From contig JAJYWN010000075.1 in assembly GCA_021791495.1 (NCBI GenBank), positions 62,001 through 126,000 on the forward strand: a DNA stretch of 64,000 bases. The letters run 5' to 3'. The notes below the pieces were generated by a model. The model saw only the letters and a program-made list of their open reading frames with translations. It was not told the origin of the DNA and did not search any database. Positions 1,636 through 55,915 of this stretch are shown here, one piece after another (the stretch's first letter is position 1; each line of letters starts with the position of its first letter). A program made the translations under genes and the position numbers. Origin of the DNA: Bacillota bacterium (GTDB taxonomy: Bacteria; Bacillota; Sulfobacillia; JAJYWN01).

Positions 1636-2897
1636 GCGCAATGGCGGCGGCGGGGGAACGCGCGCCGGGCGGGCGGCTGGTGGCGTCGTGGCGTCGGGTG
1701 GCCGGCCTCATCCTGCCCTTGTCATGGCGCGGCGTGCGGCGGCGCAAGGCGGGGGCGGCTCTAACCGCTCTGTCGTTGGCCCTTGGCGTCGCCACCTTCC
1801 TCCTGTTCGGTGGGTATTTTGCCGCCACGCGCCAGGCCGTGGAGGGGCGGATCGAACCCCTCGCCTTGCCGGCCGACCTGGTGGTGGCCGTGGGGGTGGA
1901 TTCTCCAGGTGGTGTGCCGGGTGGTCTACCCGGCGGCGGACCGGCGGGTGCGCCTTCCATCGTGCAAACCCTGAACCGCCTACCTGACGTGAAGACCGCC
2001 ACCGGGATGGTGGTGGGGACGGCCTACACTTCTGTGGGCCGGCGGCGTATCATCGGATTGGACGAAAAGGTCCTGGGAGGGCTGAAGCTCGGGGCCGGTG
2101 CGCCGCCAATGACGGCCGGCGAGGTCCTTCTGCCTCAGACGCTGGCGGCCGCCGGCGGCATCAAGGTGGGAAGCCAAATCACTATCGCCACAGACATGGG
2201 CGGGGTGTGGAGAGAGCAGAAGTTCAGCGTGAGCGGCTTGTACCAGGGCGACGACTTCTTCAGTGGTCCGCTGGCCCGGCGCGAGGCTCTGGCCCCGCTG
2301 GGTCTGGGGCCTGTGGATAACGCGGCGTTGGTCGAAGCCTACCCCGGCAGTTCCCGCCCCGGCGTGGCATCGCAGATACGGAGTCTGTACCGGGATTCGG
2401 CGGACGTTCTCATCCCCGAGTTTCCGGCATCCTTGGCCGGCAGCTGGCTGGGCCAGGCCTTTTCTCCTGGGAACGTGGCCGTCTTCATGGTCTTCACCTT
2501 CTCCGGCCTCGGCGTCATGAACGTCCTGCTGCTATCGTTCCTGCAGCGGAAACGGCAGATGGGGGTCTTCAAGGCCCTGGGCATGGATGATAGCGACCTA
2601 AAGCAGCTCTTTTTTGGCGAAGGCCTGTATGTGGCCGCCGCCGGCGCGGCCCTGGGAATGGTGCTGACCGCCGTCTTGGTAGCTCTCCTCGGGCGCCTGA
2701 CGAGTGTCCGCTTCATTATCTCGGGGTGGCTCGCGGCTTGGGCTCTGGTGCTTTCCTTCGCCGTGTTCGCTCTTGCCGCCTGGCTGCCGGCTGTGTTATG
2801 CCAACGGGCTTCGGTCAGCGTCTTGCTGCAGAATAAGCGCATTTACCTGGACCCCAAGACTTCCTGCGCCGAGTGCGGCCGCTGCGGCGGGTTCTAG
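1632..2897 (+). CDS. ABC exporter permease, FtsX/MacB type, with C-terminal cysteine cluster
   Basis: Second permease of the exporter. It has an N-terminal membrane segment (about residues 38-60), a MacB-like periplasmic core of about 200 residues with a Gly/Pro-rich loop near residue 95, and three C-terminal membrane segments. The coupling helix RKRQMGVFKALGM follows the second membrane segment. After the last segment the protein ends in a short tail with Cys412, Cys415 and Cys418 (CxxCxxC) just before the stop. FtsX permeases normally lack such a tail. It could bind metal or form a disulfide, on the cytosolic side if the topology is standard. Substrate unknown. Confidence 0.9.
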   Translation: MSAMAAAGERAPGGRLVASWRRVAGLILPLSWRGVRRRKAGAALTALSLALGVATFLLFGGYFAATRQAVEGRIEPLALPADLVVAVGVDSPGGVPGGLPGGGPAGAPSIVQTLNRLPDVKTATGMVVGTAYTSVGRRRIIGLDEKVLGGLKLGAGAPPMTAGEVLLPQTLAAAGGIKVGSQITIATDMGGVWREQKFSVSGLYQGDDFFSGPLARREALAPLGLGPVDNAALVEAYPGSSRPGVASQIRSLYRDSADVLIPEFPASLAGSWLGQAFSPGNVAVFMVFTFSGLGVMNVLLLSFLQRKRQMGVFKALGMDDSDLKQLFFGEGLYVAAAGAALGMVLTAVLVALLGRLTSVRFIISGWLAAWALVLSFAVFALAAWLPAVLCQRASVSVLLQNKRIYLDPKTSCAECGRCGGF

Positions 2898-2953
2898 CCG
2901 GCGGCGGCGCCGCCTCCCTGGACTGTTCTTTCAGCACAGAGCGCCGCCGCGGC

Positions 2954-4288
2954 CTACCGCAGTGACTTCAGGAACTGCACCAGGTCGTTTTTCTCCGTCT
3001 GGGTCAGACCCAGCCCGAACTGCTTGTTGAAGTGATTCACCACGTCAAGGAGAGTCCGCGCCTTGCCGTCGTGGAAGTAGGGGCCCATCGCCCACAAGCC
3101 GCGTAGCTGGGGGACCTTGTAGGTGTATTCGTTGAAGGCCTCGGACGTGGCCCGCCGCGGGTTCATCCCGATCGCCGCCGGGGTCACCGTTTCGTTGTTG
3201 GTGTAGAGCGGCGGCGTATGGCAGCGGGCGCACCCGGCCTTGCCGGTGAAAAGGGTCTGCCCGCGCGCCGCCCGCACCGGATCATAAGAGCCTGCAGGGG
3301 GCGCCGGAGGCGTCAGAGTATCAAGGTAAGCCGCCACGTCGGGCATCTTGGGGCCGATGAGGTCCGGAACAGGGCTGATGATCGCATCGGCGTCGCTGTT
3401 CCGTTTCGCGATGGCGGCCTCATACGGGTCGGCCGCGGGGACGGCCGCCGAGTTGGCTGCAGAGTCTGGCGCGCGGTCGAGTGAGGCGGCCGGTGTGGTC
3501 GTGGTCCCCGGCTCCGCGTGTTTGTCCGCCATGTGCCAGTCGGCCTTGGGCCGGAATCCCCCCTGACCGTGGGCTACATAGTCCATGATGAAGTGCCCGG
3601 CCTCCTCCGGCGTGTCGAAAGCGCCGTTCCAACCGAAGTAGTAGAGGCCCTTGGTGAAAAGCGGCAAGGTCTTCGAGGCGTTATTGACGTGGTCTTCCGC
3701 CTCGTTCATGTAGGTCAGGTCCACCAAACCGCGCCCCCACCCCAGTAACACCGTCTTCCGGGCCAGACTCACCCGGGGCGAGAGGGCCAAGAGAGCGCCG
3801 TAATTCAGCTGCTCGTTGGGTACGCCATCGAGGCGCCGGCCCTGGCGGTCCACGACGCTGTGGCAGAGCGCACAGGTCACCCCCCAGCGCTTTTGCCCCT
3901 CAGAGTCCAGGACTTCCTGAATCCCCACCACCTGGCCGTCGGCATCTGTCAGGATACCCAGCGTCTTGGCCCGGACGGCGGCCGGGAGAGCCAGGATCAG
4001 GCGGAACGGCAGGCGGAGATCATCGGTGAAGTAATACTCATCTCCGAAGGTGTCGTATCGGAATGTCTGCCGCCCGGCGGCGGGGTCGGCCGCGCTACGG
4101 TCCGGGGGCGGGGGAGAGGCGGCACGCAGCGGCGGTCGGGCGGTGTGGTTTGGACCGGGGCCGGGGGCGAGGACGGCATAGAAGGCGCCGGCCGCAAGGA
4201 GGACAGCGACGGCCACCGCCAGCCACAGGACGCGGACGCGTGTCTTCGAGGACGTACCGATACCTTTGCCGTTGCGCAGAGACGACAC
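2954..4288 (-). CDS. Membrane-anchored di-heme cytochrome c, CcpA/MauG-like
   Basis: Predicted extracytoplasmic c-type cytochrome. An N-terminal hydrophobic helix (about residues 21-42) is an uncleaved anchor or signal peptide, followed by a Pro/Ala-rich linker. Two heme-binding CxxCH motifs are visible: C139-A-L-C142-H143 and C353-A-R-C356-H357. The C-terminal region after the second motif, including YKVPQLRGLWAMGPYFHDG, is typical of the di-heme cytochrome c peroxidase/MauG family. An Ala/Ser-rich stretch lies between the two heme domains. Possible roles are peroxide reduction or electron transfer to an oxidase; sequence alone does not decide. It is a single gene, convergent with the upstream exporter. 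The start is GTG at 4288 with AAAGGG directly before it, so the exact start is uncertain. Confidence 0.85.
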   Translation of the reverse strand: MSSLRNGKGIGTSSKTRVRVLWLAVAVAVLLAAGAFYAVLAPGPGPNHTARPPLRAASPPPPDRSAADPAAGRQTFRYDTFGDEYYFTDDLRLPFRLILALPAAVRAKTLGILTDADGQVVGIQEVLDSEGQKRWGVTCALCHSVVDRQGRRLDGVPNEQLNYGALLALSPRVSLARKTVLLGWGRGLVDLTYMNEAEDHVNNASKTLPLFTKGLYYFGWNGAFDTPEEAGHFIMDYVAHGQGGFRPKADWHMADKHAEPGTTTTPAASLDRAPDSAANSAAVPAADPYEAAIAKRNSDADAIISPVPDLIGPKMPDVAAYLDTLTPPAPPAGSYDPVRAARGQTLFTGKAGCARCHTPPLYTNNETVTPAAIGMNPRRATSEAFNEYTYKVPQLRGLWAMGPYFHDGKARTLLDVVNHFNKQFGLGLTQTEKNDLVQFLKSLR

Positions 4289-27577: not shown

Positions 27578-30523
27578 ATGAGCGCTGCCAAGAACACCTA
27601 CAACACCACCAACGCCGGCGCCGCCAACGCCACCGTCCCCATGGTGAACCTCACCATCGACGGCCAGAAGGTCCAGGTCCCGGCCGGCACCAAGGTCATC
27701 GAAGCCGCCCGTCAGGCCGGCATCCGCATCCCGGCCCTCTGCTATGACCCGGAGCTATCCGCGGTCGGCGCCTGCCGCATGTGTGTCGTCGAAGTGGAGC
27801 GGGCCCGCTCCCTGATGGCCGCCTGCGCCACGCCCGTGACGGAGAACATGGTGGTCCATACCCAGACACCGCGCGTGGTGAAAGCCCGCCGCACCGTCTT
27901 GGAACTGATCCTGGCGAACCACCCCCAGGACTGTCTGACCTGTGAGAAAAACGGCGAATGCCTCCTTCAGGACTACGCCTACGAGTACGGCGTGCAGAAG
28001 ACGAGATTTCACGGCGACAAGAAAGACTTTGCCATCGACGACGCCAACCCGTTCTTCACCCGCGACCATAACAAGTGCATTGTGTGCGGCCGCTGCGTGC
28101 GGACCTGCGCCGAGATCATGGGTATCGGCGCCATCGATTACTCCCTGCGCGGCTTCAAGACGAAAGTCACCACCGCCTTCGACGTTCCCCTGGAGGAGTC
28201 ACCCTGCGTTTTCTGCGGGAACTGCGTGGCGGTCTGCCCCACCGGCGCCCTGACGCCGAAGTTCCGCGCCGGCCAGGGCCGCAGCTGGGAGATCCAGCGG
28301 ACCCTGACCACCTGCCCCTACTGCGGGGTCGGCTGCCAGATGTACCTCCTGACCAAGAACGGTAAAGTCATCGGGGCCGAGCCGGCCGAGGGCGCCGCGA
28401 ACCACGGGAAACTGTGCGTCAAGGGGCGTTTCGGCAGCTACGAGTTTGTCACCAGCCCCGACCGCCTGACGGCGCCCCTCATCCGTGTGGCGCCGAAGAG
28501 CGATGCCGTCGCCTTGTCCGAGGCCGGCGGCCGCCTTGATCAGACGAAGGCCCGCGCCCAGTTCCGTGAAGCCACCTGGGATGAGGCCCTGGATCTGGTC
28601 GCTACCAAACTCTCGGCTATCAAGAAAGACCATGGCAGCGAGGCCCTGGCCGGCCTCTCGTCGGCGAAGTGCACCAACGAAGAGAACTACGTCATGCAGA
28701 AGTTCGTGCGCGCGGTGTTCGGGAACAACAACATCGACCACTGTGCCCGCCTCTGTCATGCCTCCACGGTAGCCGGTCTGGCCGCCTCCTTCGGTAGCGG
28801 CGCCATGACCAACTCCATCGACGAGATCGGCGGGGCCGACGCGATCCTCATCATCGGGTCGAACACCACCGAGGCCCACCCGGTCATCGGCATCCAGGTA
28901 AAGAAGGCCGTCCGGCACGGCGCCAAGCTTATCGTCATCGACCCGCGCCGGATCGAACTAGCCGACAGCGCCGATATCCATCTGCAGCAGGCGCCCGGCA
29001 CCGACGTGGCTGTCGTTAACGGCTTGATGAACGTGATCATGGCAGAGGGGCTGCAGGACGAGACCTTCATCGGCGAGCGCACCGAGAACTATGACGCTTT
29101 CAAGGCTGTCGTGGCCAAGTACACGCCGGAGAAGGTCGAGGAGATTTCGGGTGTGCCGGCCGACGACCTGCGCGCCGCAGCCAGGCTCTACGCCGGCGCC
29201 GCGCGGGCCAGCATCATCTACAGCATGGGCATCACCCAGCACTCGACCGGCACCGATAATGTGCAGACCATTGCCAACCTGGCCATGGTCACCGGGAATC
29301 TGGGGCGCGAGAACGTCGGCGTGAACCCGCTGCGCGGCCAGAATAACGTCCAAGGGGCCTGCGACGTGGGCGCGTTGGTGAACGTATATCCCGGCTACCA
29401 GTCGGTGACCGACCCGGGCATGAAGGCCAAGTTCGAGGCGGCCTGGAAGCCCCTCGGCCCGCTTTCGACCAAGGTCGGTCTGACGGTGACCGAGGTCATG
29501 AACGCCGCCCACAAGGGCGAGGTCCGTGGCCTTTACGTCATGGGCGAGAACCCCATGGTGTCCGACCCCGACATCAACCACGTCCGCGAGGCCCTGGCCA
29601 AGCTGGACTTTCTGGTGGTCCAAGACATTTTCCTGACGGAGACCGGCGCTTTAGCCGACGTTATCTTGCCGGCCGCCTCCTTCGCCGAGAAGGACGGCAC
29701 CTTCACCAATACCGAGCGGCGCGTCCAGATGATCCGTCCTGCGGTGAATTCGCCCGGACAGGCCCGCCCCGACTGGGCCATCGTCGCCGATGTGGCCACA
29801 CGGATGGGCTACCCCATGAAATATTCCTCAGCGGCAGAGATCGCCCGCGAGGTGGCAGCAGTGACGCCCAGCTACGGTGGCATTACCCATGACCGGCTGG
29901 TGACTGTGACAGTTGCGGCGGGCGCCGGCGCGGCGGGTGTGGCCGGCGGTGTGGGCGCTGTCGGCGCTGCCGTTTCCGGAGTCAAGGCCGTCGACGCTCC
30001 CGTCAACCCGGGGCTGCAATGGCCGTGCCCGACCGCGGACCACCCGGGTACCGTCTACCTGCACAAGGGTAAGTTCACGCGCGGCCTCGGCGCCTTCGCG
30101 CCCATCGAATACGTCGCGCCGGCGGAAGACGTCAGTGCCGAGTACCCCTTGGTGCTGTCCACTGGCCGCATCCTGTATCACTACCACACTGGGACGATGT
30201 CGCGGCGCGCCCGCGGCCTCGACTGGGCGCGGCCCGAAGGGTTCGTGGAAGTCAACCCACAGACCGCAAGTTCATTGGGTATCAAGGATGGCGATAAGGT
30301 GCGCCTGACGTCGCGGCGCGGCACGGTCGTCACCACCGCCAAGGTGACCGACGTCACTGGCCCGCGGGTCGTGTTCATGCCCTTCCACTTCGCCGAGGCG
30401 GCGGCCAACCTCTTGACCAACCCGGTGGTGGACCCGCGGGCGAAGATCCCGGAGTTCAAGGTCTGCGCCGTACGGCTGGAAAAGGCCGAGGCGGCGGAGA
30501 AGGCCGAAAAGGCCAGCGACTAG
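27578..30523 (+). CDS. fdhA: Formate dehydrogenase alpha subunit (molybdopterin, Cys type) with NuoG-like N-terminus
   Basis: A protein of 981 residues. The N-terminus carries a [2Fe-2S] domain, a His-Cys3 cluster (CLTCEKNGEC region) and two [4Fe-4S] sites (CIVCGRCVRTC and CVFCGNCVAVCP). The molybdopterin domain then begins with CPYCGVGCQ. Cys393 in CARLCHASTVAGL is at the metal-ligand position that is selenocysteine in E. coli FdhF, so this is a cysteine enzyme. It oxidises formate or reduces CO2, exchanging electrons with the NuoF- and NuoE-like subunits. An Ala/Gly/Val-rich insert lies near residues 782-805. The start is ATG 27578 behind GGGGAGGGAGG; a longer in-frame extension to 27497 lies inside the previous gene and is rejected. 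Confidence 0.93.
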   Translation: MSAAKNTYNTTNAGAANATVPMVNLTIDGQKVQVPAGTKVIEAARQAGIRIPALCYDPELSAVGACRMCVVEVERARSLMAACATPVTENMVVHTQTPRVVKARRTVLELILANHPQDCLTCEKNGECLLQDYAYEYGVQKTRFHGDKKDFAIDDANPFFTRDHNKCIVCGRCVRTCAEIMGIGAIDYSLRGFKTKVTTAFDVPLEESPCVFCGNCVAVCPTGALTPKFRAGQGRSWEIQRTLTTCPYCGVGCQMYLLTKNGKVIGAEPAEGAANHGKLCVKGRFGSYEFVTSPDRLTAPLIRVAPKSDAVALSEAGGRLDQTKARAQFREATWDEALDLVATKLSAIKKDHGSEALAGLSSAKCTNEENYVMQKFVRAVFGNNNIDHCARLCHASTVAGLAASFGSGAMTNSIDEIGGADAILIIGSNTTEAHPVIGIQVKKAVRHGAKLIVIDPRRIELADSADIHLQQAPGTDVAVVNGLMNVIMAEGLQDETFIGERTENYDAFKAVVAKYTPEKVEEISGVPADDLRAAARLYAGAARASIIYSMGITQHSTGTDNVQTIANLAMVTGNLGRENVGVNPLRGQNNVQGACDVGALVNVYPGYQSVTDPGMKAKFEAAWKPLGPLSTKVGLTVTEVMNAAHKGEVRGLYVMGENPMVSDPDINHVREALAKLDFLVVQDIFLTETGALADVILPAASFAEKDGTFTNTERRVQMIRPAVNSPGQARPDWAIVADVATRMGYPMKYSSAAEIAREVAAVTPSYGGITHDRLVTVTVAAGAGAAGVAGGVGAVGAAVSGVKAVDAPVNPGLQWPCPTADHPGTVYLHKGKFTRGLGAFAPIEYVAPAEDVSAEYPLVLSTGRILYHYHTGTMSRRARGLDWARPEGFVEVNPQTASSLGIKDGDKVRLTSRRGTVVTTAKVTDVTGPRVVFMPFHFAEAAANLLTNPVVDPRAKIPEFKVCAVRLEKAEAAEKAEKASD

Positions 30524-53705: not shown

Positions 53706-54350
53706 CTACTGTAACGTGGCGATACCTTTGACCACGAAAAGAACCCCGAACCCCGCCAGCGCTACCCCGGCAACCAGGTTCACCGCCCGCAAAATCCAGG
53801 GGCGTTCTCCAGTCAGCGCCTTCATGCTCCCTGTCGCCACGGCCAAGACCGCGAACCAACCGGCGCTGCCCGAACCCACCGAGATCAGGGCCAGTGTCGC
53901 TTCCCATGGGTTCAGGCCCCGGAGGTAAGCCGAGGCAAAGGCACCACCGAGCCCAAGCCAGGAAACGATGGTGGCAGGGTTCAGCAACGTGATGCCCACT
54001 CCGGTCAGGTATGAACCACGCGCCAACCCTTGGCGCGCCGGTGGCGGCAGGCCGCCCTCCCATGCCCGTCTCAATGCCCCGCGGGCCATTCGGCCCATCA
54101 GATAGGCTCCTGCCAGGTAGAAAGCAGGGACGAGCCAGGGCAGCCGTAGGAGAAGGGGGACCACTCCCAGGTAGACCAAGGTCAAGTAAAGGAAGTCCAC
54201 TGTGGCCGCTCCGAGGCCCAGCAGGAAAGCGCTGGCAGTCCCGCGCTCCAAACCTTCGCGAATAGTGGCGGCGCCCACCGGACCAAGGGGGATGGCCACC
54301 GTGAGGCCCAGGCCGAAACCGGCTGTGAAGACGTTGGCGACGCTACTCAT
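53706..54350 (-). CDS. LysE/RhtB family amino acid exporter
   Basis: A 214-residue membrane protein with six predicted helices. The N-terminal GLTVAIPLGPVGAATIREGL and the second-helix GLGAATVDFLYL correspond to the LysE/RhtB conserved blocks. These proteins export lysine, threonine, homoserine or similar amino acids. The gene overlaps the Lrp-type regulator gene by eight bases, an arrangement known for LysE-type exporters that are switched on by excess amino acid through an Lrp- or LysR-type sensor. The exported amino acid is not predictable. Confidence 0.9.
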   Translation of the reverse strand: MSSVANVFTAGFGLGLTVAIPLGPVGAATIREGLERGTASAFLLGLGAATVDFLYLTLVYLGVVPLLLRLPWLVPAFYLAGAYLMGRMARGALRRAWEGGLPPPARQGLARGSYLTGVGITLLNPATIVSWLGLGGAFASAYLRGLNPWEATLALISVGSGSAGWFAVLAVATGSMKALTGERPWILRAVNLVAGVALAGFGVLFVVKGIATLQ

Positions 54351-54807
54351 GACAGGAAAGAGCGGGGACCGGTGTTTCCTTGGCCGTGGAAAGCACTACG
54401 GTGGTGCGCGTGCGAACCACACCCGGCATCCCCTTGAGCCTTTCAGTGATCAGACGTTCCAGAGCTGAGGTGCCCGAGGTGCGGACTTTCAGCAGGTAAG
54501 AGTCATCTCCTGCCACGTGGTGGCATTCCAGGATCTCATCCATGCTCTGAACAGCGTCCAGAAAAGGGCGGCACTGGTCGGGCCGTTCCACGGTCACACC
54601 GATGAATGCCGTCAGACCGGCTCCCACCTTCTCCGGCGAGATCAAAGGTACGAATCCCAGTAAGACGCCTTTCTCCCGCAGTCTCTCCATCCGATCCGAG
54701 ATTGTCTGGCGGGACAGGCCCAATCGGGAGGCCAGCTCAGCTTGGCTGGCCCGGCCATTTTCCACAAGGATATGGAGGATAAACATATCGGTCGAGTCCA
54801 ACTTCAA
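54343..54807 (-). CDS. Lrp/AsnC family transcriptional regulator
   Basis: A 154-residue regulator. The N-terminal helix-turn-helix reads LDSTDMFILHILVENGR, ASQAELASRLGLSRQTISDRM, and the C-terminal RAM (amino-acid-binding) domain follows with GVTVERPDQCRPFLDAV and the VAGDDSYLLKVRT strand that is diagnostic for the family. It should sense an amino acid and control the overlapping LysE-type exporter gene and itself. A consensus-like promoter with a nearby palindrome lies upstream. Confidence 0.93.
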   Translation of the reverse strand: MKLDSTDMFILHILVENGRASQAELASRLGLSRQTISDRMERLREKGVLLGFVPLISPEKVGAGLTAFIGVTVERPDQCRPFLDAVQSMDEILECHHVAGDDSYLLKVRTSGTSALERLITERLKGMPGVVRTRTTVVLSTAKETPVPALSCHE

Positions 54808-54910: not shown

Positions 54911-54930
54911 AGCCCGCCGTGTGGCGGGCT
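54911..54930 (-). terminator. Hairpin after the glutaredoxin gene
   Basis: A perfect 8-bp stem AGCCCGCC / GGCGGGCT with a 4-nt loop, 20 bases past the glutaredoxin stop. On the minus strand it is followed by TCCTTGCC, so the T-tract is weak. It probably ends the acyl-CoA dehydrogenase operon. Confidence 0.6.
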
Positions 54931-54949: not shown

Positions 54950-55198
54950 CTATTTGCTTGGGTCCGGCCCTTTGGCCAGGGCCGCCTCGTATTCAGCTTT
55001 GTCGAAGCCCACGAGGACATGGCTTCCGATCCGCGTGATCGGCACCATCATCGCCGGGGTAAGCTGCCGGACCTCCCGCAAGTACTTTCTGCTGGTGAGG
55101 ATGTTACGCTCTTCCCACTTGAGTCCTTTCGACGAAAGGAAGCGCCTGGCCAGCGCGCAGCGGGGTCAGAGCGGAACGATGTACATGATAACTTCCAT
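54950..55198 (-). CDS. Glutaredoxin-like protein with in-frame TGA at the active site: predicted selenoprotein (UxxC)
   Basis: Reading through one TGA at 55166-55168 gives an 82-residue glutaredoxin fold: first strand MEVIMYIVPL, then Sec11-P-R-C14, helix ALARRFLSSKGL, strand WEERNI, helix SRKYLREVRQLT, the cis-Pro loop MMVPIT and the end HVLVGFDKAEYEAAL. Every landmark of a short glutaredoxin is present and in phase, and the TGA stands exactly where the first Cys of CxxC belongs. The TGA is followed by hairpins of bacterial SECIS type. ATG 55198 has AAGGGAG nine bases upstream; TAG ends the frame. It is the last gene of an acyl-CoA dehydrogenase/ETF operon. A nonsense mutation of a Cys codon is the main alternative. 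SelA/B/C/D are not in this window. Confidence 0.75.
55125..55165 (-). promoter_or_regulatory. SECIS-like hairpins directly after the in-frame TGA
   Basis: Counting from the base after TGA, GCGC at 10-13 pairs with GCGC at 21-24 around a 7-nt loop beginning U-G. CCUUUC at 27-32 pairs with GAAAGG at 36-41 around the triloop GUC. Bacterial SECIS elements are described as a 4-bp-or-longer upper stem with a G among the first two loop bases, the loop lying roughly 16-37 nt after UGA. The second hairpin meets all of these; the first is slightly close. Confidence 0.55.
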
Positions 55199-55222: not shown

Positions 55223-55915
55223 TCACTGGTGCCCCGACAGCCTGCCCGCCCGGTCCCACGGGTTACCGTTCCCGAGAGTGGTCGCGTTTCCCTTGCTTGT
55301 GCTTGCAAAGAATCTGGCATGCCAGAACGACGGCACGTCGGCGTCCCACCGGTACAGGGTCAAGGCAACGGCCAGTTGCTCCAAATGCGCCAAGGTGGCC
55401 AACGCGACCGCCGCATACATAAGCCACAGGACTACGCCGACAGCTTCCCCGACCCAAAGCAGGGCCACGAACACGACGCCGACCAACGCCCCGGCGGCCT
55501 TGGCCAGCCAAGTGTGAAAAGACCCGCCACGGCGGAACCGCGCCCGGCAGACGATTTGAGTTATGACGTAGAGGCCGATGGTTGGAAGAAGAAGCGCGAA
55601 GTACCGGCGCATTACGGCAGGCAGGAGGAACGCCAGGCCGACCGGAGCGACCAGAAAGAGCGCCGTGTCGGCCAAGCTGTCCAAGCGGGCTCCAAGGTCC
55701 GATGTTAGGCCAAGACGCCTTGCAAGGAAGCCGTCCAGGGCATCAGTGCCGAGGGCAACCAGCAGAAGCTGAAGGAAGCTCTCCCGATGGCCAGAAAGCG
55801 CAAGGACCGCAAGGAATGGGACCAAGGTCAGTCGCAGCAGGGAAAGGCCATTGGGTAACGCCGCCACGATCTGTCGCCGATCTGCGCCATTTCCGCCGGC
55901 CGGGGCCGGACTCAC
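55223..55915 (-). CDS. CDP-alcohol phosphatidyltransferase family protein
   Basis: A 230-residue membrane enzyme with about five helices. The full catalytic pattern DxxDGxxARx8Gx3Dx3D is present in the stretch GTDALDGFLARRLG followed by DLGARLDSLAD. Members transfer a phosphatidyl or similar group from a CDP-activated donor to an alcohol in phospholipid synthesis (PgsA, PssA types). The acceptor cannot be named from sequence. It starts with GTG 55915, three bases after the etfA stop, and lies 24 bases before the glutaredoxin gene. Its place within a fatty-acid oxidation operon is unusual. Confidence 0.88.
   Translation of the reverse strand: MSPAPAGGNGADRRQIVAALPNGLSLLRLTLVPFLAVLALSGHRESFLQLLLVALGTDALDGFLARRLGLTSDLGARLDSLADTALFLVAPVGLAFLLPAVMRRYFALLLPTIGLYVITQIVCRARFRRGGSFHTWLAKAAGALVGVVFVALLWVGEAVGVVLWLMYAAVALATLAHLEQLAVALTLYRWDADVPSFWHARFFASTSKGNATTLGNGNPWDRAGRLSGHQ

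Follow-up and report, generated by a model that had tools for sequence, protein, structure and literature searches.

On the minus strand of the 64,000-nucleotide stretch of DNA that we analysed (the window), positions 54950-55198 hold a glutaredoxin gene that runs for 82 codons, from an ATG start to a TAG stop, if its only in-frame TGA is read as selenocysteine (Sec or U). The predicted product is MEVIMYIVPLUPRCALARRFLSSKGLKWEERNILTSRKYLREVRQLTPAMMVPITRIGSHVLVGFDKAEYEAALAKGPDPSK. The TGA is codon 11 (55166-55168) and lies at the catalytic Cys of the CxxC motif, which gives a UPRC active site; the resolving residue, Cys14 (codon TGC, 55157-55159), is invariant in a 40-member alignment. If U is read as C, residues 3-59 of the protein, which include both flanks of the TGA, match PF00462 (Glutaredoxin) with 37.3 bits (cut-off 22.9). 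A Shine-Dalgarno-like GGTGAAGGGAG can be read in the sequence 9 nt 5' of the ATG. The standard-code list of open reading frames in the window lacks the gene. An earlier note on this DNA had described a complete short glutaredoxin with a single TGA on the first Cys of CxxC that ordinary gene calling drops, and the translation, the Pfam match, and the list of reading frames bear this out. Just 3' of the gene, at 54912-54929 on the same strand, is an inverted repeat (GCCCGCC-ACAC-GGCGGGC, then TTCCTT). Judged by eye it is possibly a terminator; a terminator scan did not call it.

The glutaredoxin is probably the last gene of an operon on the minus strand with etfB, etfA, and a CDP-alcohol phosphatidyltransferase. 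The phosphatidyltransferase gene (PF01066, 55223-55915) is 24 bp upstream of the glutaredoxin and is its probable operon partner; it lies 3 bp behind etfA (electron transfer flavoprotein alpha, PF01012 and PF00766, 55919-57013). Upstream of etfA, on the same strand, are etfB (electron transfer flavoprotein beta, PF01012, 57057-57878) and an acyl-CoA dehydrogenase-like reading frame, the latter recognized by eye. The downstream neighbour, also on the minus strand, is an Lrp/AsnC-type regulator (54343-54807).

In six homologues from other genomes, the codon that corresponds to codon 11 is TGA too (7/7 with the window). Three of them (L032, L033, and L034) came from a scan of GTDB genomes, and L058, L060, and L061 emerged when 154 genomes of the class were searched with a profile; this search also recovered L032 (as L057) and L033 (as L056). 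The six are 51-65% identical to the window's protein (65% for L032, 64% for L033, and 51% for L034, which is from a named strain, Alicyclobacillus tolerans BL-1), and all seven proteins share the motif Y[VI]VPLUP[HR]C. In a tree built from 74 columns and 51 rows, of which 22 are Sec and 29 are Cys, the seven form an all-Sec clade with support of 100/99, and the sister of this clade, L062, is another Sec protein. Counted by codon position (1/2/3), the window differs from L032 at 18/19/33 sites and from L033 at 20/20/33 sites. Because these differences are mainly at third codon positions, it appears that the frame is translated through the TGA. The more distant L034 differs from the window at 30/24/30 sites, without a third-position bias.

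We did not find a gene partner or synteny that is common to all members of the clade. The glutaredoxin has RidA-like neighbours in L032, L033, and L061 and a cysteine desulfurase-like neighbour in L034. As the neighbours differ, they do not imply a partner. In L033, which is from a metagenome-assembled genome, TnpB-like and IS transposase-like reading frames (683-1699 and 2714-4153; translations judged by eye) flank the Sec glutaredoxin. We considered a mobile-element origin and rejected it: there was no plasmid match and no relative on a viral contig, and what we did see was one distant phage NrdH (35%) and the transposase-like genes that adjoin L033.

More broadly, the class contains many YruB-like glutaredoxins with either Sec (YTTPTUPHC and similar) or Cys (YTTPTCPHC) at the same position. 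We assigned the Sec and Cys forms by reading the codon directly, because counts of internal stops can include terminal TGA stops. The homologue search that the earlier note had proposed thus has a clear outcome: relatives have TGA or Cys at exactly the position of codon 11, without random stops. A TGA at the first Cys of CxxC, together with Cys homologues elsewhere, places the window's protein in the UxxC type. On the tree, the Sec/Cys state changes about 8 times, and at least 3 of these changes are forced by supported branches; with 74 columns, many forks in the tree are unresolved. Among the clade members that we tested (the window's protein, L057, and L034), none passes any NCBIfam cut-off. 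The best curated model for the window's protein is TIGR02196 (GlrX_YruB), which it matches over its full length with 51.5 bits (cut-off 88.55), but the clade sits on a long branch outside its YruB-like relatives. NF041212 (Uxx-star) also describes a family of glutaredoxin-like (seleno)proteins, but the window's protein scores 37.5 bits, below the cut-off of 66, over residues 3-67.

The genome has the machinery to insert Sec. On contig C47, selA (582 bits) adjoins selB (303 bits, or 331 with its neighbour), and the same contig encodes a tRNA-Sec (70.9 bits) with anticodon TCA (UCA). There are two selD genes, which score 372 and 359 bits and have a TGA of their own at the known Sec site (GUGCK in one and GUACK in the other); they lie at C10:34029-35000 (L045) and C54:48833-49753 (L046) of the assembly (G000). 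The estimated contamination of the assembly is 4.24%, so one of the two selD genes could be foreign. A second match to tRNA-Sec, at C54:51407 (49 bits), is a tRNA-Ser(TGA) according to ARAGORN, and we discarded it. Thus, the search for selA, selB, selC, and selD that the earlier note had called for found all four components. By a hand tally across the class, selA is present in 19 of the 20 genomes in which we read the codon directly as Sec, as compared to 14 of the 29 in which it is Cys. In the Sec-form genome without selA (G083), a selB exceeds the cut-off (302 bits), so the absence of selA is probably a gap in that assembly. Also, the window encodes a formate dehydrogenase alpha subunit (28307-30475 on the plus strand; 852 bits with its frame neighbours) that has no in-frame TGA, so this enzyme does without Sec even though the organism makes selenoproteins.

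In bacteria, a UGA is read as Sec with the help of a bSECIS element, which is modelled as a stem-loop just 3' of the UGA with a G in the first two bases of the loop and the loop 16-37 nt after the UGA. For the seven sequences of the clade, RNAalifold predicts a consensus structure of 28 pairs at 55103-55177 (minus strand), in which a lower stem of 15 pairs surrounds the UGA and is accompanied by a side hairpin and topped by an apical hairpin. The apical hairpin, UUCCUUUC-GUC-GAAAGGAC, is at 55123-55141 with its loop at 55131-55133. This GUC loop begins with G and lies 32 nt past the UGA, within the limits of the model, and this is kept in the seven sequences. L056, L057, L060, and L061 have UUCCUCUC GGC GAGAGGAG as their apical hairpin, and L058 has the same with one G-U variant. 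The earlier note had placed the structure at 55125-55168. A conserved stem-loop does follow the TGA, but the predicted structure is larger than that and encloses the TGA.

How strong is the case for this element? Of all cells in the consensus pairing, 96.9% can pair, as compared to 45-58% in a control in which the partner strand was slid by 1-3 columns. Among the seven related sequences, one pair, in the apical hairpin, has a compensatory change on both sides (U-A/C-G). Relative to shuffled sequences, the z scores are -4.14 for L056, -2.88 for the window, -2.49 for L061, -1.67 for L060, and -0.57 for L034, whose fold alone is no stronger than its own shuffles. When the window's apical hairpin alone is compared to synonymous recodings, it is moderately unusual (fraction 0.067). 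Conservation of synonymous sites around the TGA is suggestive at most (p from 0.06 to 0.46 in pairs), and the energy of a simple hairpin is by itself a weak discriminator. Overall, there is good sequence evidence, not conclusive, that the conserved stem-loop is a bSECIS; the covariation is thin.

Outside the clade, the hairpin of many Sec homologues that are more distantly related is not the same: it reads GCGAAAGA GUU UCUUUCGC, and its loop comes 23 nt after the UGA. Most Cys homologues do not have an equally strong hairpin (L079 and L083 are exceptions). We also noticed a second type of Sec glutaredoxin, with the motif YTTPTUG[SA]C, in genomes of the same taxonomic order (L014 in G002, L019 in G001, and L031 in G003). 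Here the hairpin is a different one, GCGAAAGAGUUUCUUUCGC, and 23 nt separate its loop from the UGA. This hairpin also occurs in L027 and L028; L062, L076, and L082 have it with changed pairs. Our scan did not find a simple uninterrupted hairpin of the bSECIS type in L017, L020, and L078, which are Sec glutaredoxins of another subfamily ([TS]TPTUPHC); perhaps their element is interrupted or atypical.

We considered whether the gene might be a Cys glutaredoxin that was broken by a mutation from TGC or TGT to TGA, or that was misread by the sequencer. The gene is uncalled under the standard code, and TGA is just one nucleotide away from either Cys codon, as this explanation would have it. But the same TGA in an otherwise clean frame is common to seven genomes, including that of A. 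tolerans BL-1, and for this reason we reject a pseudogene or an error and give it practically no chance; the excess of third-position differences from L032 and L033 and the Sec machinery in the genome also argue against it. Nor is this a recoded genetic code: as the earlier note had pointed out, TGA is a normal stop here that ends other genes (for example, the upstream gene at 55223-55225), and some relatives have Cys at the position of codon 11.

It is harder to say which residue is inserted, as this cannot be told from sequence alone, and TGA might be read through as Trp or Cys or by near-cognate suppression instead of as Sec. Still, the genome encodes tRNA-Sec (UCA) along with SelA, SelB, and SelD, the aligned relatives have Sec-TGA or Cys at this codon, and the conserved stem, with an apical loop that has G as its first base and is 32 nt from the UGA, is compatible with the recruitment of SelB. 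We consider non-Sec read-through to be very improbable. The machinery, the conserved TGA, the interchange of Sec and Cys, and the conserved stem-loop all support the reading of the earlier note, and from these we infer, with high confidence, that the locus is a Sec-encoded UxxC glutaredoxin.

The predicted fold agrees with this assignment. AlphaFold2, given the 40-member alignment, predicts a thioredoxin fold (pLDDT 92.3) with the order beta-alpha-beta-alpha-beta-beta-alpha, and the conserved proline before the third strand, P53, is invariant in the 40 members. The fold matches 7c10 and 3ic4, and also the NrdH structures 1h75 and 4hs1. Within the PDB, 7c10 ranks first in the sequence-profile search (55 bits) and also in the fold comparison (TM 0.82/0.91, rmsd 1.1); this structure is Grx1 of Clostridium oremlandii (cGrx1; PDB 7c10/7c12/7c13). 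cGrx1 is described as a selenoprotein in its native form, with a U(or C)PXC site, and has been proposed as the reductant of the selenoprotein MsrA (PMC7642778); its mutants are written as U13C/C16S (PMC4479559). The two proteins are alike in having Sec in UPXC (U13 and C16 in cGrx1) and the same small thioredoxin fold. They differ in that they are just 36% identical in the fold alignment and the VPLUP motif is specific to the window's clade. Also, the proposed partnership with MsrA pertains to cGrx1. UxxC glutaredoxin selenoproteins have been listed in surveys from 2006 on, including those of Geobacter sulfurreducens, Moorella thermoacetica, and Alkaliphilus metalliredigenes (PMC1794560, PMC13188914). 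We liken the window's protein to these via the family and the motif as listed, as they share PF00462 and the motif.

In the mechanism that we propose, SelB with Sec-tRNA(UCA) would read the UGA at codon 11 as Sec under the direction of the stem-loop around and 3' of it. As a selenolate, Sec11 would attack its target (a disulfide, a mixed disulfide, or an oxidised substrate), and the resulting intermediate would be resolved by Cys14 as a selenenylsulfide. The oxidised protein might then be re-reduced by thioredoxin reductase or by bacillithiol. The genome encodes bshA (533 bits), and the organism seems to make bacillithiol. A search for gshA of the PF04262 type found none, so glutathione seems a less likely donor than either bacillithiol or thioredoxin reductase. 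Sec insertion in the cell, catalysis, the electron donor, and the substrate are all predictions from sequence, and any particular donor or substrate is doubtful.

The same selenoprotein could instead be an NrdH-type donor of electrons, with ribonucleotide reductase as one possible recipient, or it could supply a methionine sulfoxide reductase (Msr) with reductant, rather than act as a general transferase for low-molecular-weight thiols. The match of the fold to NrdH fits this, as does the proposal that C. oremlandii Grx1 reduces MsrA (PMC7642778, PMC4479559), and the operon contains no obvious thiol substrate. On the other hand, the score for the NrdH model TIGR02194 is 24.8 bits, as compared to a cut-off of 85.75, no nrd or msr gene is adjacent, and the members of the clade lack a common synteny. 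We regard this physiology as a possibility that deserves some weight, while leaning against it. One further reading, which we think unlikely, is that the VPLUP[HR]C proteins form a glutaredoxin-like subfamily of their own that has no known Cys member and may have an absolute need for Sec. Its members would be selenium-dependent redoxins that are coupled to bacillithiol (hence "seleno-bacilliredoxin") or to the etf operon, instead of glutathione-dependent enzymes.

The principle is not new. UxxC glutaredoxin selenoproteins have been listed since 2006, and one of them has been studied biochemically and crystallised; because cGrx1 is a native UPXC selenoprotein and the surveys contain others, this kind of selenoprotein was already known. 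What is new here is a further glutaredoxin selenoprotein, in an unnamed clade. It adds a well-supported and unannotated selenoprotein to a genome whose standard gene calling loses it, and it defines a small and apparently all-Sec clade (VPLUP[HR]C) whose tested members fall below every NCBIfam cut-off.
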